From: Pigoraptor vietnamica | Taxonomy: Eukaryota; Opisthokonta; Filasterea | DNA length: 41,779 nucleotides | Direction: 5' to 3' | Assembly: GCA_943704525.1 (NCBI GenBank) | Contig: CALSCQ010002478.1 | Span: 1 to 41,779 of the forward strand | Part shown: positions 16,901 through 41,779 of the stretch, one piece after another | How positions within the stretch are numbered: the first letter of the stretch is position 1 | Layout: each line of letters starts with the position of its first letter | The notes under the pieces: model-generated | What the model saw: only the letters and a program-made list of their open reading frames with translations | Told to the model about the DNA's origin: nothing | Database searches by the model: none | Position numbers and translations under genes: made by a program

Positions 16901-19900
16901 CACCACGCGCAGCGCGGCGCCTTCGCGCGTCTTGATCCAGTTGATGCCCTGGAGCTGGGGGTCGATCATCAGCGGCCAGCGCTCGGCGTTCGTCAGGATC
17001 GTCGCGTTCTCGATCGACACGCGGTCGTTCGGGAGGCCCTCGTTGTTCCACGAGGCGATCTTGGCGTCGTCCGTCAGCAGCGACAGCGGGTCGAGGCCCT
17101 CTGTGATCGGGATGCGGACCTCCTGCTCCAGCATGTACGGCAGCCACTTCTCGTTCATGAGCTCGAGGCGGTACTGCTTGCTGAAGCACCCGACGTACGA
17201 GACAAACGCCGAGATGAGCAGGACGTCGCCCGGCAGCGTCTTCTCCTGCTGCTTGAACATCTCCACGGACTCGGCCCAGCGGACCTTCTCCGACGCGAGG
17301 CCGTTGATGAGGCGGTTGGCGAGCGCGAGCGTGAGCTGCGTCTTCTTCGCCTCCTCCTCGCAGCGCAGCTTCTCGCTCGTCGCGTGCTCGAACGCGGCCT
17401 TGAGCTCGCTGAGGTTGTCGTCGAGCTCCTTGATCTTGCCCTTGATCTCGGCGAGCTTGGCCTGCGACACGGCGAGCTCCTCATTCGCGGACGAGAGCGC
17501 CTGGCGCTTGGGCTCGACGTCGCAGTACACCTCGTAGAACTGCGGTCGCAAAATACACGTTAGCTCACTTGCACACACACACACACGCGCGACCAAACTC
17601 GCACACGTCCAAGGCAACGCACCTTGACAATGTTGATGACCCAAGAGCAGAGGCCGGCAGCGGCGAGCGACTTGGAGCGGATGAGGTCGGGAACGAACAT
17701 TTCGTCGGCGAGGTACGGGCGCAGCGCCTCTAGGTTCGACGAGTCAATGTGTTCCTTGTCGAAGTTGAGCAGCGCGTCGAGGAACTGGTCGACCTTGGCC
17801 ATCATCGCCTTGCCGGCCTTCCACGAGCGGTCCTTGGGAATCTTCCCCGCGGGCGCCATGAGCACCATCACCGCCGCAGTGACGTTCTTCACGGCCTCGG
17901 GCGGCTGGCCGAACGACTTGAGCTCGGTGAGGTTCGCCTTGTTCAGCGTGTTGAGCGCCTCCTGTGCGGCGGCGAGCGCGGGCTCGGCCCTCGCGAGGTC
18001 CGCCTCGCAGCTCATCTGCTTCTCCTTCACCTCGGCCGTCTTAGCGCCGACCTTCACCTCCTCCTCGTCGGCGATCGCCTTCTCGCGGTTGACCTTCTCC
18101 GTGTCCTCGGCGACCTTCTGGATGAGCTTGTCGGCCTCCTCGTTCTTCTCCTTGAGCTCGACCTCCTGCGCGGCGAGCTTCTGCTTGAGGTCGTCGACCT
18201 GCGCCGCCGTGCTCTTGAGCTTCGTGAGACCGTTCTCGAGGCGGTCCATCTTCATGATGAGCTCGGCGTTCTTCTTGTCGAGGAGCGTCTTGTACAGCTT
18301 GATCTGCTCGAGGAACGACTTGGGCGTCGTGTAGTTGTAGCGGCGCTCGTTCGCGAGGTACTTCTTGCTCATCTCGTTCACCGACCGGTGCACAAACGCC
18401 ATGAAGTTGCTGACCGAGCCCTTGATCGCCGCGGGCACGAGCTCCGTCTCCTCGAGGAAGCGCGCCGACACCGAGTTGAGCGCCTCCTCGGGCCACTCGT
18501 GGAACCAGTCGATGTTCGTGCAGTTGACGATCGCGGGGAACTTGCGGCAGCGGACGCGAAGGATCGTGCCGACGGGCGAGAAGCACAGCACGACCTTGAG
18601 GTTGCGGCGCACCTTCGAGATGAAGAACTTCCAGCAGTTGTCGCGCGTGTCGACGAGCCCGGCGCCCTTGACCTCGTTGCGCATGCTGCTGATAATGTTC
18701 TCGACCTCGTCGTCGGGGAACAGCTCGGGGATCTCGCCGCTCGCGAGGAGGTCGTTGATGAGCACGAGGAAGCGCTCGTCGGCGACCTGCGAGTCCGTCA
18801 TCATGAAGACCATCCCGACGTTCTTGATGCCGGCCTTCGTGTACAGACCCGCGAGGTCCGTCTTGAGATCGGGAATGCCGTAGCCCTTGCGCAGCGTAAT
18901 CTGGAACACCTCCAGGCCGCTGATGAACGCGGCGAGGCGCGCGAGCGACTGCTTGCCGGAGCCGCCGACACCGACGAGAAGCGCGTTGCCGCGCGGGTTC
19001 TCGAGAATGCGGTTGATGCGGCAGACGTGGTGCATGGCGTCCTCGAACAACACGAGGTTCATCGCGGCGTTGACTTCGTTGTAGTTGTCGAGCGCCTCCT
19101 CGAGAATCTTCTTGAGGCGCGCCCAGCCCTCGACGGCCTGGTACTTGGGCTCGCCGACGCCCGTCGCAAAGTGGCAGTAGATGCACGGCTGCTCCTTCAG
19201 ACGCTCCATGTCGAGATCGTCGAAGTACTTCTTGACGATGTCGGCCTGGAGCTGCGCAAACGCCTCCTGGTCCTTCGTCACGATGAGCTTGTCGCCGTAC
19301 ACGCGCGAGGCCTCGTGCAGCCACAGGCGGACGAGCTCCGTCGGCGTCTTGAAGTTCGCAGCCGTCGAGAAGAGCATGCCCTGGAAGATGTTCGACAGGT
19401 CGCGCAGGTTGAACGTGTAGTGGAACTTGACGGCCGTCGGGAGGAACACGCTCGACACCTTGTGGTGCAGCGCGAGCGCCGCCGTGACGAGCTTGTCAGC
19501 CATCTTCGTGACCTGCGGGACGAAGCCCTGCATGTGGCCCGCGAGGATGCTCGAGTAGATCTGCTGCAGCGCCTCCATGCCGGGGAAGCTAACCGCAAAC
19601 ACGGCAAAGTGGCGCTGGAGGCGCGGGTTGATCGTGAAGCTGCCGGCGGTCGGGTTCATGCACGCGACGTACTGGCAGTTGTGGATCTCCTTGAGCGAGA
19701 GCTTCGCGCGGTCGTACCAATGGCTGTAGTCGAGGTGCTGGCGCATGAGCGTGTGCGGCTGCACCGTCCCGTACGCGTCGACCTCGGGCATGTTCAGGTC
19801 GTCGATGAAGTAGATGAGGCGCTTCGAGCCGGGCGGGCCGTAGTTGCGGCCGGCCTTCTTCTCGAGGGGCTTCTCGAGCACGCCCTGGAGCATCGCCGAC

Positions 19901-22900
19901 GTCGTGTAGTGGTTGAACGGGATGTTGACGACCATCGTGTCGTCGTCGAGGTCGCCCATCTTGTTCTGCACGAGCACAGTCTTGCCGCAGCCGGCGTTGC
20001 CGACGAGCAGCACGGGGCGGCGGCGGTCCGTGAGGAGATCGATGAAGAAGCGCAGGCGCGTCGTCTCGGCCGTTGCGACGAGGACCGACTGCAGCGGCAT
20101 CTCGGGGTCGTGCTCGTACTTGGCGACGCGCTCGGCCCACGGGACAAACTTCTTCGTCTCGTGGTCGATGCAGTAGTCGAACACGGTGCCCGCCGACGGG
20201 TACTTGATTGTGCGGAACTCGGCCTGCCACCACTTGCTGAACTCGACGCGGTAGTCGACGAGCTGGTCCTGGAACATCGCGCCGCCAAACGCCCACACCG
20301 CCGCAAAGACGAAGTAGATCTCGTACCACTCCTTGTCGCAGCCCGGCGGCACGTTCTCCTCCGTGAGGAGGCCCTCGAGCAGGTAGCAGAGCGTCTGGAT
20401 CATCGAAATGTCCGTCATCGGCGTGATCTTCTTGAAGCCCGTGCGCAGCTTCTCGAGGCACGACGGCAGGTACTTGTCGAAGAGGATCGTGAGGTTCGCC
20501 TTCTCCGACTGCACCTCGCGCTTGTCGATCCACGTCTGGACAAAAGGGTTCCAGCCGAGGTCCGTCGGGTTGAGGTACAGAATGCCGGCGCGCGACACCG
20601 TGGCGGGCGTGGCGCACTTGAGGTGGCCAATCTCAAAGACGAGGCGCATCGACGCGACGAGCGGAATGCGTTCGTTCGACGCGAGCGTGAGCACCTTGTT
20701 GTCGTCCATCACAGTGTTGAGCGACTCGATCCACATCGGGTCAATGTCGCCGTCGAGGAGGATCCACTTCGGGTTGTCGCCCGACATGCTCGCCATCTCG
20801 CGCATGATCGTCGAGAAGAGGCCGTCCTTCCACTCGCGCGTCGCGGGGTTGATGTAGCCGAACAGCTCGTCGTTCGTCACGGCCTTCGGATCGAGGTCGT
20901 GCACGACGGCCTTGCGGCCCATGTTCGTGTACGTCTTCGCGAGCGTCTTCCACACCTGCGTCTTGCCCGTGCCGGCGCTGCCGAGGACGAACACGCAGTG
21001 GCGCACCGCGAGGAGCTCGTCAAGCTGCACGACCTTGAGCACAAAGTTGTCTTCGGGCTGCAGCTTGAGCTCCGAGACCGTGTTGCGGATCTGGTCCTCG
21101 AACGAGAGGTCGCGCTTGCGCGGCACCTCGACCTTGGGGAAGAGATCGCCGATCAGGCCCATGAAGACGGGCACGTCGTCCGACACAATCTTCGGCAAGT
21201 TGAAGTCGCGGAGCGCGCGCATGAGCACGTTCTCCTCGGGGAGGTCGGGCTCCGAGCGCTTGAGCGTGCCGGCGACGACGAGCACGGACTTGATGGCGCG
21301 GAGACCCCAATCGTAGTGGTCCTGCTTCGAGAGCAGCTCCTTGTTGAGCCCGTAGAGCGTGACGAACTTGCGCGCGAGCGTCTTGGCCTCGATGAAGCCC
21401 TCCGCCATGAGCATAATTTCGCAGATAAGCTCAAAATCGGGGACGACCATCGCGCACGGGCGGAAGAGCGCCTTGATGTTCTCGGGCAGCTCCGTGCGGC
21501 CCGCGTAGCCGGGGTTCATCGTGATGAAGATGCCGACGGTCGACTCGAGCGAAATCTCCTCGCCCTGGAAGATGAAGCGCTTCTTCTTCGCGCGGAGGCC
21601 GTCCGTGATCGACTTGACCTGCACGGCGACGACGGAAAGCACCTCGATCGAGATGCGGTTGAACTCGTCGAAGCACCCCCACGCGCCCGTCTGCGCGAGG
21701 CCCTTGTAGATGTCTCCGCAAGACTTGTAGTCCATCTGCTCAGAGCAGTTGAACACGTACACCATCATGCCGAGCGCGCGGCCGAGATCCTTCGTCGTCT
21801 CCGTCTTGCCCGTACCGGCGGGGCCCGCGGGCGCGCCGCCCATCACGAGGTGGAGCGATTGCGTGAGCGTAATGTAGCAGCGATCCGTGAGCGGCGTGAT
21901 GACGAGGCGCGGCGTGTTGCCGAGGTACTCGTACCAGTAGCGGAACTGCGCGTCGCAAATGTTCGCGAAGCAGTCGCGCTGCTCGTCGTCCCAACGGTGG
22001 CGCAGCTGGCTCTGCCACGAAAACGCCTGCGCAGACTCGGCCTTCTCCTGGATGAGCTTCATCACAATGTCGCGCGCGTGCACGTCGATCGTGCAGATCG
22101 TCATGATCTTCTGGCGGTCGTTGCGCGAGAGCTCGCCCTGGATCATAGTGATCAGCGTCGTGAGCTGCGAGACCTGCTTCTTGTAGTACTCCTTCAGCGC
22201 GTTCTCGTAGCCCTCCTCGAGGCGCTCAAAGCCGATGTTGACCTCGGTCGTCCACCAGATCTGCGTGCCCGCGAGCGCAATCTGGCCGGCGTAGTCGAAG
22301 ATCCACTGCTCACGCGGCTTCTCCTCGTACGTGACGACGGCCTCCGTGAGAATGTTGCGCAGCGTCGCGCGCATCGTCTGCATCAGCGAGCTGAGCCAGC
22401 GCTCGACCTGCCCGGAGCAGTCGCACGGCTCGGTAAACTCGACGTACTCCTTCTCCTTCGAGTACATACCGAGCGCGCGCTTCGTGACCTTGCCGCTCGC
22501 GTCCGTCTCGAACTTGAGCTGCGCCATGTTGTCGAACAGCTTGCTGAGGTGCTTCGCGACCTCCTCGGGCTGGTTGCCCTTCGACAGAATGTCGAGCAGG
22601 TCGGTCGACGACACGAAGTAGAAGCGAGGGAAGGCGAGGCGCTTCGTCTCGAGGTACTCGGCGAGCGCCTTCTCGCAGAGGGCGAGGCGCGTCTGCATGC
22701 CCTCGAGCATCTCAAAGAGGCCGGGCTTGCAGCACGCCTCGACGACGTTCGGCGTCTTCTCGGCGCTGCCCATGAGCTCCTTCCAGTCTGAATCGATGCC
22801 GTCGAAGCGCTTCGAATCCTCGGGCAGCTGGTTGCGGATGTCCTCGCTCCCGATGAAGATCGACTCGAGGTGCGACCACGTGCGCTGGACCTCGAACCAG

Positions 22901-25900
22901 ATCGTGATGACCGAGTCGACCGTCGACAGCGTGCGCTGCCACCGCGAGACCTGCTCGAGGAAGTGCGCGACATACTTGGACGTCATGAGGTTCTGCAGGA
23001 CGACCTGGTTGTCCTCGAGCGTCTCGACGAGCTCCTCCGACGACCGGATGAGCGACACGCTCGTGCGCGGGTGCTTCTCGTACTCAAACTCCATCCCGGA
23101 CCACGTCTTGTCGAGCTCAGAGAGGATCTTCTCCATGCTGAGTTCCTTCGTCGCGCGGTCGACGATCGAGCGCACCTCGTCCTCAAAGTTGTGCAGGTTG
23201 AGCGCGAGGAGGTCGTTCAGGCGCGTCTCGTCCGACATGCAGAACTTGACCTTCGTCGCGTGCATCAGCTGCTGCCAGTGACGCTCGCGGATGGCCGGGT
23301 TCTGCAGCTCGCCGACGGCGCGCAGCGACGTGATCATGTTCTTGACCGTCGAGTCCAGCCCGATGAAGGCGTCCCACGCGCGCACCTCCTTGTCAAGCGC
23401 GCGAATGTCCTTCACAAACTTCTTCGACTCGAGCTCCATCGCCTCGACGTTGATCGCGCGCCAGAGCGTCGTCCGCCAGTCGTCAAACAGGTACGTGACG
23501 AGGCCGATCATGTCCCAGAGCACCTTGAGGAGCGAAATCTCCTTGCGGCACGTGCGGAGCTGCTTGTACTCGGGCAGCGCGACCTCAAACAGCGACGCAG
23601 ACTGCTCGAGCTGCCGGAGCTCCTCCTCCATCGCCGTCGTCTGGCGGTGGGCGCGGTCGAGCGCGCGGTACGCCTGAGGCAGCGGGATGTCCGACTTGAA
23701 CGGCGCCGTGCGCAGAAAGTGCTCGCGGAAGTCGAAGTTGCGCAGCTCAAACTGGTCGCACTTCTTCTTGAGCGCGGCGACCTCGCTCGCCTGGAGGGGC
23801 GCCACCTCGTGCTTGATCGACGTCGCCGTCTTCTTGAGGTTCGCCCAATGGTCCGGCAGCTCCGCGAGCAGATTGTGCACCTCCTCGTTCATGTCGACGT
23901 CGTACGTCTTGAGGAGCGCGACCGTCTGCTTGAGGGGCTCGAAGATCTCGTCCGTGTTGGCGGTGCGCTCGCGGACGGCGAGCAGCAGACCCATGACGTC
24001 GACGAGGCCCTTGTAGTCGCCCTCGGCGATCGGGTGCGAGAGGCCCGCCGTGACGTCCTTGATGAACTTGGACAGGTCCGAGAGCGTCGTCGTCACGTGG
24101 TCCATCTGGTGGTGGATGAACATGTAGCTCCACTTCTTGACAATGTTCGACAGCGTCGCCTTGAAGGGCTTCGCGTCCACGCGGAACCACCCGTCAAACG
24201 CCGCCACGCCGTTCATCGCCTGGATCTTCGTGTAGATCTTCTCGTACGTGTCGATCTGGCGCTTGTACTGCTCGAGCGTCGGGGGCGTCGGCTTGAGGCC
24301 CTCCTCGCCCGCCGCCTCAATCTCCTCCGGCGTGGGCACCTTGCCGTAGCGCAGGAACTGCGCGAGGAACTCCTGGCGGTCGTCCGTCCACAGGTAGCCG
24401 TACACGTCAAACGAGTTGCGGTACTCGATGCACGCGTTCATCACGCCGTTGACGTTGTCGAGGAGCTCCGACTTCATGTCCGTGAGGTCGACCATCTCGT
24501 CCATGTCGCGCGCGTAGTCGGGCAGGCTCGAGTGGCTGGCGAGGCGGGGCACGAGCGTCGCCGCGCGATAAATGTCGCGCAGGATCGTCTCGATGATCGC
24601 CATTACCGACCCGTCGTGGTCGTCGTCCATCGACGGCGTGAACACGAGGTGCGGCGGGATCAGCTCGAAGCGCGCCTCCATCAGCGCGGGGAGCTCATTC
24701 GCCTTGAGGTACTCGGCGTCCATGTTCTGCAGCAGGTACAGCAGCGAGCAGTGGATCGTCTTGAAAAAGCCCTCGACCACGAGATCGTCGACGTAGTCGG
24801 CGTACGCGCGCCACTCCTGCGACCCCTCCGTCGCCTCGAGCGAGCCGCACGACTCGCGCAGCAGCGCGTGGATGCGCTGGCCGCCGGCGCGGATCTCGTC
24901 GTAGCGTACGGCGAGCTTCGCCTCCTTCTCGGCAATGTTGAGGAGGCCCTTCTTGCCCGCGCGTTCGATGAGCGGCGCCTTGTACCAGTTGGCCATGATG
25001 ACGTCGATCTCCTCGACGTTGCTCTTCGCCTTCTGCAGGCGCTGCGCGAGCTCTTCCACGGCGCCCTTCGTCGTCGCAATGTACTCCTGGATGCCCTCCG
25101 AGTTCCAGTTGAGCTCCGAGAGGCCGCGCTTCAGCTGCTCGTCGATCGCCTTGAGGCGGCGCTCGATAAGAGGCGCCTCCACGTCGATGACCGTCTCGCG
25201 GATGCGGTTGTACTGCTTCACCATCAGGTCGAGGTTGCCGACGTACTGCCGGAACGTCTCCGACTTGGCAAAGATCGCCGCGGCCGACTGCGGAATGTTC
25301 TCCTTGCCGAGCGACTCGAGGTACTTGACCTCGCGGAGGAGCGCGACGAGCTGCGAGTCGAAGTTGACCGTGAGGAGGCCGTTCGAGCCCTCGCGCGAGA
25401 GCAGCGGGCGCTCGAGGTTCTTCTGGCTCTCGACGCCGACCGTCTCGGACCACGCGTTGTAGAGCATGTCGTCAAACTGGTTCAGGCACGCCGTCATCTC
25501 GTTGAACTTCTCAAAGACCGCCTCCGCCTCCGCCGACACGAGCACGTCCGACTTGAGCTCCTTGAGGCGGCGCATGGGCCCCTCGATGCGCGCGCGCAGC
25601 TCGTGCGACCACGACAGCGACCCGGCGACCGTCGGCTGGTTCTTGTGCACGGGCGGCGACGCCTTCTGCGCGTTGAAGATGGCCTTGACGTCGTCCAGCT
25701 CCCCGCTGAACATCGAGAGCAGGCGCGTGTACTTCTGCTCAATGTCCGCGCGGATGACCTGGCGGTCGAGGAGGCCCGCAAAACTGTCAAACAGCTTGAA
25801 GACCGACTCGACGACCGAGCAGTCGTCAAAGCCCTGCGAGATGACGCTCGCGAGGCGGCGATCGAGGTCGCGGATCTTGAGCGAGAAGACGTCGAAGTCG

Positions 25901-27569
25901 TCCTCAAAGTCGGGGATGTTCGGGTCGAGCGGGTCGTACGTGCGCGTGCCGAACGCCTGCCAGTTGCCCTCAAACTCCTTGAAGATCTGCTGCAGCTGGT
26001 TGCTGAGCTGCTTGCCCTTCACGCCGCCAATCTCGACCTTCTCGAGCTTGATGAACTCGAGGCCCGTCGCGAAGAAGTCGAGCACCTTGCGGATGCGCGC
26101 CTGGAACTTCTCGAGGCGCACAAACACCATCTTGTCCTCAAACACCCACGGGCGCACCGTCCCCTCGGCGGGGGCGCCATTCGAAGCGCTCGCGGCGGCC
26201 GCGGCGGCCTCCTTCGACTTCTCGTTGATGCGCGCCTTGTAGTCGTGGTACACGGCGTAAAACTCGTCGAAGATCTCGAGCGTCGTCTCGACGCGGTCCT
26301 TGGCGTCGTCGGGCTCGAGCTTGAAGATGTTCTCGGGCTCGAGGTACGACCGCGCGTGCTCGATAATCTCGTTGCAGACCTCCTGGAGGAGGACGATGAG
26401 GCGCGTCGGCGTGTTGTAGTACTTCGAGTGCTGCCAGATGAGGCTGAGCGTGTGCATGAGGGGCCCGAACAGCGCGGCCATCTCCTTAAAGTCCTCCGTC
26501 TCGTTCATGCGCTCGAGAATCGGCCGCAGGGGCTTGAGGTGGATGTTGATGTCCTTGGCCTCCATCAGCGCCGCGACGACCTCCTCAAAGATGCGCTTGA
26601 ACGCGGGGTAGTAGCTGCTCTTGCTCTTCTCCAGCACCATCGCCATCTTCATGATCTTGTCGTTGCGGAGCTGGTCGTAGATGCACTGCAGGTTGCCCGC
26701 CTTCGCCGCCCAGAAGTCAAGCTCGACGAGCGGGCCAGGGTTGAGGCCCTCGAGCAGCGGCGCCGCAGAGTTGCTCTTCAGCACGTCGCGAATCTGGTGC
26801 GTCCAGTCGATGATGGCCGACTCGATCGCGTGCACAAGGTTCTTGTCGATGTTCGTGTCCGACTCGGTGCCCACGGGAAGGGGAAGGAGCGTCTTGCCCT
26901 GAAATGGACAACGGCTCCAAGTCAGAACCAGAAATGGCAACAGCGCTACTGCACAGACAGGCACGGAGTGCGTGCGCACACGCACCTTGACCTGTCCCGC
27001 GACAACGTAGACCGAGCTCTTGAGGCGGTGGATGTGGCGGAGCACGTCCTGCGCGACCACCGCGGGCCACTTCGTGTGGTTGCGCTGGTTCATGAGCATG
27101 GGGAGATAGACGTCGTCGACGACGGCCGAGAGGTGCTCGAGTGGCGTGTACGAGAGGTCGCCGTAGATGAGGTCCTTCTTGATGGTCGCGGGCTTGAGCG
27201 GCTCCTGCTGGTCGAGGCGCCGCTTGACAAAGTAGACCGACTTCTTCTTCAGCGACGACGGCGGGTCGAACGACGGGACAATGTCGTCGCGCGCGTTTTG
27301 CGAAAAGAGGATGAAGCCATGGTCCGACTTCTCGAGAAAATTCAAAATCATTTGCCTGCAGCGCGCGGTGACGATTAACATAGGGAGACATCGCGACCAC
27401 AGGCGTAAGAGCGCAAACAGCACGAAACCCACTTGTTCTCCTCGACGGAGAGCATCTTCTTCCACTTGTCATCCTTAAGCTTTGTCGATTTGAGATAGTA
27501 ACGCTCGAGGAAGGACACGCGCGCGTCCTCCCACTCGCCCTCGCGGGCGGGCTCGGCACCCTCCGCCAT
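13901..27569 (-). CDS. axonemal outer-arm dynein heavy chain, beta type
   Basis: Four exons, 27569-27433, 27355-26986, 26898-17623 and 17539-13901, give 4473 aa, about the length of human DNAH9/11/17. AAA1-AAA4 P-loops are GPAGTGKT (1861), GSAGTGKT (2142), GNAGCGKT (2469) and GVGGSGKQ (2812), with [10 protein letters not shown] after AAA1. The stalk first helix is about 3010-3160, the microtubule-binding domain about 3160-3261, and intron 3 falls exactly at [16 protein letters not shown] before the returning helix. AAA5, AAA6 and the C-terminal domain are complete. The AAA1 region ([36 protein letters not shown]) resembles the DNAH9/11/17 and ODA4 group, so it should be an ATP-driven motor of outer dynein arms. 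The start at 27569 has the context ACGATGGCG; an in-frame ATG at 27581 is possible. No break was seen. Confidence 0.95.
17572..17586. repeat. short (CA)n tract in dynein intron 3
   Basis: CACACACACACACAC lies inside the 83-base intron 17540-17622. Confidence 0.9.
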
Positions 27570-39158: not shown

Positions 39159-41779
39159 ATGGAGGGGAAGGGGAAGTTTTGGGAGACGGACCTTACGAAG
39201 GCCCTCGAGCCGCGATTGGGCAAGTCGGGAAACGCCGCGCGCGCGCCCGTCACCGTCATCGACGTCTTCAACAGCACGTGCGCGAAATACGGCGACCAGG
39301 TGACTCGGCCGCGCGTCTGTGTGTCTCCCACGGGAATTGTGGCCCCGTGCATGAGAGGGGCCGTCGTTGCGGCAGTTGCTCACGCCCACTCTGTGTACTG
39401 CGATGCAGCCTGCGCTCCACGTGGAGAGGGGCGGCAAGTGGATTAATTGGACATGGAAGCAGTACCAGTCGGACGCGCTGAAGTGCGCCAAGGCCTTTGT
39501 CAAGCTGGGCCTGGGTCCCCGCCGGTGTGTCGGCATCCTCGGGTTCAACTCGCCGGGTGCGTGCAGTCTCCGACGTTTGTCTCTGTGATTGCATGATCTG
39601 CCCTTTGCTTGCGAGGGCCGGGGCTGTTAGGAGGCGCTTCCTTCTGCATTTCCTCCCGGACTTGTTCTGACGGTCGCACTGTCGTTCGTCTGTCGCAGAG
39701 TGGCTTATTGCCAACATGGCCGCTATCTACGCCGAGGGCGTGCCGTTTGGCATTTACACGACGAACGCTGCGGACGCGTGCCACTTTGTTCTTGAGCACT
39801 CGAAGGCGCAGGTGGGTGCGCCGGGATCAACACGGCTGTTGGAAGCGAAATTTCTTCTCTCGATTCCCATTTGATAGTGCGAGGATGGGTATTCAACCAA
39901 TGATTACCTATTGAACTGAGGTCACTCGAGTGCCATGCCTTGAGCACTGATCGAGGGGAGTGTGTTTTTGCGCGCAGATTTGCGTTGTGGAGAACGCGGC
40001 GCAGCTGGCCAAGATCCTCGAGATCAAGGACAAGCTGCCTGAGCTCAAGGCGGTGGTGCAGTATTCCGAGAGGCTCCCCGACAAGGCCCCGGACTACGTG
40101 CACTCGTGGGAGTCCTTCCTCAAGCTCGGTAAGCATGCGCGTGCACATTGTCATCGACAGTTGCATGTGCGACGCGCAATAGTCGAATTATGTCGCTCGC
40201 TGCGTGTGTTGGGGTGTGTCCTGTGCGCGTGGGGCTTCGCGTCGCTTAAGAGGCTTGTTTTATAGGCTTGCATGTAACTCACCGCTTGTGTCCGGACGCG
40301 GTCACCGCAGGCGAGAGCATTCCCGACGCCGACGTGCAGTCCAAGTGGAAGAGCATATTGCCCGGCCACTGCGCGACGATCATCTACACGTCCGGCACGA
40401 CGGGCAACCCGAAGGCCGTCATGCTGTCCCACGACGCCATGACGTGGACCGCCAGCATCGTCGCCGGCAAGTTCGGCGTCAACAACGAGGACCACATCAT
40501 CAGGTCTGTGTCACTGGCTGCGGCGTCCTCTAACACACTGACACGCCGACAAGGCTTACGTTGCTGGTTGATGCGCGCGATTGTCGTGCGGTGCAGAGTG
40601 CAGAGCGTGTGCCTATTGGGAGCTGTTTGAAATTGACGGAGGGGCATCCCGCGTCCCACCGTCAGCCCATGTGAGAGAAGATGGACGCCCGTGACTTGGA
40701 CTGACCCGGAGCTCTCCCTCCCCCGTCGCAGCTTCCTCCCCCTCAGCCACATTGCAGCGCAAATGGTGGACATCCACGCGCCGATGAATTTTGGCACGCG
40801 CGTGTACTTTGCGAAGCCCGACGCCCTCAAGGGGAGCCTGGGACAGACGCTGCGGGACGTGCGGCCAACATATCCGCCCTGCGTGCATCCTGTTTGATTT
40901 TTGTCTGTCTTGGTGCAGTTACTGGGGCCCGCTTGAGAGTGTCGTCCTTGACCGCGCTTGTCTTGCGTCGATGTCCACGCTGTTCCTCGGCGTTCCGCGC
41001 GTGTGGGAGAAGATTGCGGAGAAGATGCAGATGATGGCCTCGTCGCACTCTGGTTTCAAGAAGACGATCGGTGCGTGCACGGCTCGCTACTCTTGTCCCC
41101 CTCACTTTTTTTGGCACTGTTGGAGTCGATGATCGATCTCAGCGACATCTCAATTTGGAACTGTTGGAGTTGCATGCCGTATGTAGGCGCACTGGTTTTT
41201 CCCCCCCGTTTCGTTGTGAGCATTCGTTTGTGCGCAATCTCGAGCACATTGCGGCCCGCGCAGCTTCCTGGGCGAAGAAGAAGGGCCTCAAGGGCAACAT
41301 GGCCGTCCAGGAGGGCAAGAGCAAGCCCCACGGATGGTGGGTGAATGCTTCCGTTTGTGTCTGGACAGTCACGCACACACACACACACAGCATGGGACGC
41401 TGAATTTCCTCCGCAGTGCCGCTTTCAACATGGTGCGCTTGTCCTTGTGATGCTCACGCATGGTTTCGTATGCGGAACAGGTGGCTCGCCAACAAGCTCG
41501 TGTTTTCGAAAGTGAAGGAGGGCCTCGGCCTCGACCGCTGCCGCATGGCGTTCTCCGGCGCAGCGCCCATCCAGATGTCGACGCTGATGTACTTTCTCAG
41601 CCTCAACATCCCCATCTACGAGCTCTACGGGATGAGCGAGTCCACCGGTGCGTGGACGGATCACAAAGCAAGCACTCCACCTCTGTCTGGACGGATCATA
41701 CTCGCACCCTCCCTCTCCCTCCCAACATAGGGTTAGGATCACACGCGTCCTCCCCCCCCCCCCCCCCCCCCCCCCCCCC
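39159..41779 (+). CDS. ACSBG: bubblegum-type long-chain acyl-CoA synthetase, 3' end outside window
   Basis: Nine exons are visible: 39159-39299, 39409-39556, 39699-39811, 39978-40128, 40311-40503, 40732-40869, 40979-41070, 41264-41336, 41481-41647, giving 405 aa of a roughly 650-750 aa family. The exon 9 donor GTGCGT at 41648 opens an intron that runs off the window. The sequence follows human [28 protein letters not shown]-binding P-loop [10 protein letters not shown] (from residue 210), [42 protein letters not shown] and [11 protein letters not shown]. It activates long or very long fatty acids to acyl-CoA by way of acyl-AMP; the C-terminal lid is missing only because the window ends. Intron 6 is AT-AC (U12-type). 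The 41337-41480 intron boundary is the least certain. Confidence 0.9.
40870..40978 (+). other. U12-type AT-AC intron in ACSBG
   Basis: The intron starts ATATCC (40870-40875), ends CCAC at 40978, and holds GTCCTTGAC (40944-40952), one base from the U12 branch-site consensus TTCCTTRAC. Phase 2 fits, and the junction gives [17 protein letters not shown], the expected family sequence. No GT-AG alternative restores this. The branch A (40951) to 3' end distance of 27 bases is longer than usual. Confidence 0.8.
41371..41391. repeat. short (CA)n tract in an ACSBG intron
   Basis: CACGCACACACACACACA type repeat within intron 41337-41480. Confidence 0.85.
41648..41779 (+). other. truncated ACSBG intron ending in a poly-C run
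   Basis: After the GTGCGT donor come pyrimidine-rich sequence, a TAGGGTTAGG stretch (41728-41737) and a run of about 28 C at the end. AACATAG at 41724-41730 could be an acceptor, but the sequence after it does not look like the next ACSBG exon. Confidence 0.5.

Follow-up and report, generated by a model that had tools for sequence, protein, structure and literature searches.

The donor of the minor spliceosome is among the most conserved splice signals. Its textbook form is RTATCCTTT (PMC2846911), elsewhere called nearly invariant as ATATCCTT (PMC2831892). How this donor pairs with U11 and U6atac was explored by means of engineered suppressors (PMC4980772). For the human P120 minor intron, such suppressors associate a CC5/6GG donor with U11 GG6/7CC and U6atac GG14/15CC, where paired mutants place G14 and G15 of U6atac opposite C6 and C5 of the donor, respectively, and this human work implies that U6atac position 14 and donor +6 matter (PMC4980772). 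In humans, the genes with a minor intron include PTEN (PMC3728624). Minor introns are also already known in protists (PMC2846911; PMC9887622), e.g., in Acanthamoeba castellanii, where a C-rich stretch follows the donor (PMC2846911), and the last common eukaryotic ancestor had U12-type introns (PMC9887622); the presence of minor splicing in a protist is thus no surprise on its own. One survey, in which snRNAs were sought with Rfam models, makes no mention of Pigoraptor, Capsaspora, Holozoa or Filasterea in its main text (PMC10639083). In the literature searched, no paper naming both Pigoraptor and the minor spliceosome was found, and no report of minor splicing in Filasterea appeared among the matches listed, including papers naming both the minor spliceosome and Capsaspora.

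The introns described here, from the filasterean Pigoraptor vietnamica, resemble the U12-type introns of animals and plants in having AT-AC as well as GT-AG ends, RTATCC at +1 to +6, and a CCTTRAC branch site ahead of the acceptor, in a genome that encodes U12, U4atac and U6atac and where a PTEN intron sits at the place of the human PTEN minor intron. They differ from these systems in the GC replacing TT at +7/+8 genome-wide, in an altered U6atac box, and in a U11 that was not found with the Rfam model. As in A. castellanii, a lineage-specific sequence is found at the minor-intron donor of a protist, but there the stretch lies downstream of a consensus donor, whereas in Pigoraptor the consensus itself is altered at +7/+8. 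The best explanation, which we hold to be quite probable, is a U12-type intron removed by the minor spliceosome and using a lineage-specific RTATCCGC donor code, shared by dozens of introns and partly co-evolved with U6atac.

An AT-AC Intron in the ACSBG Gene

The window, i.e., the whole stretch of 41,779 nucleotides analysed (contig CALSCQ010002478.1), carries close to its end the 5' part of a gene named ACSBG, the product of which is a long-chain acyl-CoA ligase (Pfam PF00501 on the protein record P0001). P0001 was walked along the window exactly, i.e., with zero amino-acid differences allowed, and the features delineated are as follows:

39159..41648, + strand: ACSBG gene, 5' part (exact walk of P0001; Pfam PF00501 on P0001)
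39300-39408, 39557-39698, 39812-39977, 40129-40310, 40504-40731, 41071-41263 and 41337-41480, + strand: the seven GT-AG introns of ACSBG (P0001 walk)
40732..40869, + strand: upstream exon, with a 3' end encoding ...VRP followed by AC of a split Thr codon (P0001 walk)
40870..40978, + strand: AT-AC intron of 109 bases, phase 2 (letters, P0001 walk, protein record)
40870..40878, + strand: donor ATATCCGCC, with the U12 consensus kept at +1 to +6 and GC replacing TT at +7/+8 (letters)
40945..40952, + strand: branch site TCCTTGAC, with CCTTGAC at 40946-40952 and a putative branch A at 40951 (letters)
40975..40978, + strand: acceptor CCAC, the first YAC/YAG after the branch A, 27 nt away (letters)
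40979..41070, + strand: downstream exon, starting with G of the split Thr codon (P0001 walk)

An initial annotation, made from the sequence of the window, had proposed that an ATATCC donor, a CCTTGAC branch site and a CCAC end occur together at the only place where the ACSBG gene departs from the GT-AG rule. Re-reading of the letters, with ATATCC at 40870-40875 as the start of the donor, finds the three motifs and their coordinates all correct, and the exact walk agrees on the rule, seven of the eight complete introns in the window being GT-AG and the remaining one, at 40870-40978, AT-AC. Seven pairs of boundaries at this place yield an identical protein, among which only the pair 40870/40978, as AT-AC, has known splice termini; with a length of 109 bases, the intron could not be retained without a break in the frame.

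Over 405 residues, the joined product is 100% identical to EukProt record Opistho-1_new@78237 (P0001), the next-best protein match being from Capsaspora at 57%, and the residues across the junction, which the initial annotation had read as restored by splicing, are present in P0001. Opistho-1 is the earlier name of Pigoraptor vietnamica, whose genome annotation made use of the RNA-seq-based BRAKER1 and of PASA (PMC9492541); the clone name Opistho-1 also appears in PMC7147346. Whether derived from transcripts or from annotation, P0001 provides good but indirect support for splicing at 40869/40979. Errors of assembly or of the gene model could be suspected, considering that mixed cultures were the source of the genome assembly (PMC9492541) and that a run of C closes the window, but the match of P0001 across the junction and the recurrence of the same pattern on many contigs, as described below, make such an artefact very improbable.

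Two further observations concern the window. The contig closes at 41751-41779 with a run of C, where the assembly probably broke off within low-complexity sequence of the following ACSBG intron. On the reverse strand, an open frame of 3301 aa at 17560-27465 encodes dynein heavy chain domains and runs for almost 10 kb without an intron, in a window otherwise intron-rich.

A Donor Variant Shared Across the Genome

Compared with the textbook donor ATATCCTTT, the ACSBG donor reads ATATCCGCC. The consensus TT at +7/+8, a feature used by predictors rather than an invariant, is absent and GC stands instead, and because of this lack the intron is classed as a variant of the U12 type. The donor first proposed holds at +1 to +6, but the initial annotation was silent on the departure at +7/+8, on its genome-wide occurrence, and on the partly matched U6atac.

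A strict scan of the genome for TATCC followed at 30-90 bases by TTCCTTRAC, the positions after TATCC being left free, returned 20 matches vs. five for the reversed pattern; at +7/+8, GC was found in 13/20 and TT in 0/20, with G at +7 in 16/20. When TATCCGC was combined with the looser branch site CCTTRAC 30-90 bases further on, 61 places were retrieved vs. nine for the reversed pattern, spread over many contigs and including the ACSBG intron; about nine of the 61 may be chance matches. Any non-C base at +6 gave 28 places vs. 31 reversed, i.e., no enrichment, and donors with another base at this position, e.g., TATCGGC, which would suit C14 of U6atac, were thus discarded. From these counts (61 vs. 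9; 28 vs. 31; GC in 13/20), the rule that emerges is GC at +7/+8 with C kept at +6. A donor of the form RTATCCGC used throughout a genome was not met with in the literature searched, which covered a minority of subscription papers and where searching by donor letters was uninformative.

Intron-Like Behaviour of the Other Places

Counts of intron behaviour cover 47 of the 61 TATCCGC places. A purine stands at +1 in 42/47 (21 A and 21 G), though the search pattern did not require one. When the first YAC/YAG lying 8-35 bases downstream of the branch A is taken as the acceptor, a feature also absent from the search pattern, the 21 A-donors are followed by AC in 18 cases, AG in one and none in two, and the 21 G-donors by AG in 13, AC in six and none in two, so that donor and acceptor types are associated (Fisher p 1e-4). 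The six of 21 G-donor matches where a YAC precedes any YAG count against this reading. Among the 38 A- or G-donor matches having a YAC/YAG, the first one lies 8-32 nt from the branch A, and the 27 nt of the ACSBG intron fall towards the long end of this range. Over the joined flanks of the 42, a crude and uncontrolled coding score took positive values in 23 and negative values in 18, and could not be computed for one.

Removal of the ACSBG intron by the major spliceosome would be conceivable since major-type AT-AC introns exist, but these have G at +5 (PMC2831892), where the ACSBG intron has C, in addition to a U12-type branch site. With 60 other places sharing the same arrangement and A-donors pairing with AC ends, this explanation appears exceedingly improbable. 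The assignment to the minor spliceosome made in the initial annotation gains support from these dozens of places, which are alike in donor and branch site and have ends that match.

Among these places is one in PTEN, where a GTATCCGC...CAG intron interrupts codon 27 between its first and second bases, in a part where the alignment to PTEN chain 7jvx_A runs without gaps; in the sister species, the PTEN record (Opistho-2, P0121, 91%) is continuous across the junction. We take the human minor intron to be intron 1 of PTEN, at the same place. An AT-AC intron of the RTATCCGC kind is also found at L124 in a candidate gene that is presumably HSBP1-like, where, as a second check of an AT-AC junction, no homologue scored for the protein. 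Separately, at one locus (L018), two RTATCCGC places lie about 1.2 kb apart on the reverse strand (C1072:25619-25713 and 26830-26915) near the U4atac gene, and the flanks of one of them, by eye, presumably correspond to a cyclic-nucleotide phosphodiesterase.

Minor Spliceosome RNAs and the Search for U11

Three RNAs of the minor spliceosome exceed their Rfam cut-offs, each with one gene found, namely (i) U12, at 73.8 bits vs. 53, (ii) U6atac, at 81.4 bits vs. 33, and (iii) U4atac, at 64.0 bits vs. 53 (C1072:23302-23426); U11 is not among them. None of the three was found in 14 control genomes, a weak control as those named are bacteria. From the alignment, the branch-reading stretch of U12 is standard and unchanged. 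U12, U6atac and U4atac are preceded, at a distance of 66-71 bases, by a common element, TCCCAYAAG, and since the same element is carried upstream of U2, U1 and U5, the three look like real snRNA genes. This TCCCAYAAG (L079, L092, L083, L001, L002, L003) is a candidate PSE-like snRNA promoter element.

The Rfam U11 model, which belongs to the set used by the survey mentioned above (PMC10639083), matched nothing in the Pigoraptor vietnamica genome at E<=1e-3, and U11 was not found at E<=10 either, a level considered as noise because three bacterial control genomes also matched; this does not show that U11 is absent. Searching by the upstream element, GTCCCAYAAG occurs 78 times in the genome vs. 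49 for the reversed pattern. These 78 sites comprise 20 scanned with Rfam at the gathering score, 50 at E<=1, the three of U12, U4atac and U6atac, and five unfetched; this route reached U2, U1, U5 and a short RNA, and no U11 in the 70 of 78 scanned, one of which (L058) runs into N past the element. When the element was combined with GCGGR, 16 matches were obtained vs. seven reversed (seven folded, L073 subjected to an Rfam scan only, six fetched and scanned, two outside), and Rfam named U11 in 0 of the 14 scanned. A minor spliceosome, which the initial annotation had taken the intron to imply in its U11/U12 form, is present, the genome having U12, U4atac and U6atac genes, and U11 was searched for and not found; a genome lacking every minor spliceosome component, which had been named as telling against the intron, is not what is observed.

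The sole U11 candidate from the scan of loci, L110, was rejected as it resembles a short Pol III RNA. Of note, L067 1371-1444 (-) on contig C284 and L110 on contig C1110 are both short RNA-like stretches ending in T-runs, each behind an snRNA-type upstream element and a TATA-like box, and L110 resembles L067 by eye. L067 matches Rfam RF01656 (ceN72-3_ceN74-2) at 41.4 bits for a cut-off of 38, a family that belongs to the sbRNAs of nematodes, which are related to Y RNAs; a filasterean with Y-like RNAs would merit attention.

The Donor-Reading Box of U6atac

In the only U6atac copy found, no second one being detected in the genome with <=2 mismatches allowed, the donor-reading box is changed from AAGGA to GCCGA. 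Aligned with its family, it reads GUGUUGUAUGA-GCC-GAGAGAAGG vs. GUGUUGUAUGA-AAG-GAGAGAAGG, the neighbouring letters being unchanged. In the human register, the pairs A16-U4 and G15-C5 persist, the new donor is matched by C13-G7 and G12-C8, and C14 lies unpaired opposite C6. Hence, two of the three changed U6atac letters pair with exactly the two changed positions of the donor, a match of +7/+8 with U6atac 13/12 that suggests co-evolution. Shifting the pairing by one base, as weighed by hand, gives fewer good pairs and was dismissed. No work plainly on point regarding divergence or co-evolution of U6atac was present among the matches listed.

As in the P120 suppressors, donor and U6atac letters are altered in the same helix, with C at position 14 in both; unlike them, the Pigoraptor change is natural and involves +7/+8 with positions 13/12, and C14 faces an unaltered C+6.

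The Pigoraptor box forms 4/5 pairs with its own donor and 3/5 (one G-U) with the textbook donor, and the textbook box 3/5 with the Pigoraptor donor. The computed energies tell against a simple story. The Pigoraptor box reaches -2.5 and -3.5 kcal/mol on two of its own donors and -1.3 on the textbook donor, vs. -3.3 kcal/mol for the textbook box on Pigoraptor donors and -5.7 on the textbook donor. Taken together, the values on its own donors give the Pigoraptor box no advantage over the textbook box, and they fall far short of the textbook pair.

An uncompensated change, to which the lack of a C14/C+6 pair and the weak computed helix would both conform, has to be weighed. The donor shift would then be real but driven by GC-bias drift or by U11 alone, the U6atac box having lost constraint independently; with a single gene in a single lineage, two matches given two changes could be luck, at about 1 in 9. 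Against this stand the confinement of the U6atac change to the donor-reading box, with adjoining conserved letters intact, and the pairing of two of its three changed letters with the two changed donor positions, so that we regard an uncompensated change as rather unlikely and a U6atac partly co-evolved with its donors as the better account.

Proposed Mechanism and Meaning

For partly co-evolved donors and U6atac, the following order of events can be proposed by analogy with human work, with base pairing in Pigoraptor vietnamica deduced from the register above. U11 would first pair with UCCGC through a box such as the predicted GCGG, which would likely be the reason why C is kept at +5 and +6, and U12 would pair with CCTTGAC as usual. 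U6atac would then replace U11 through A16-U+4, G15-C+5, C13-G+7 and G12-C+8, leaving C14/C+6 unpaired, before catalysis would join the exon end AC to G. In the course of evolution, donors and U6atac would have shifted together at +7/+8. Put for the lineage as a whole, it is likely that the donor code was rewritten in this filasterean, about 50 or more U12-type introns having passed from RTATCCTT to RTATCCGC along with the U6atac box and a predicted U11 GCGG, with +6 left unpaired.

Minor splicing is thereby placed in Filasterea, close to animals. If the proposed code is true, surveys adapted to RTATCCTT and to the U11 model of Rfam may overlook introns of this kind, and such lineages may be listed as lacking part of the machinery. 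A natural joint change of donor and U6atac would, moreover, show that the minor donor code can move and, with its C14/C+6 mismatch, would test which pairs matter.
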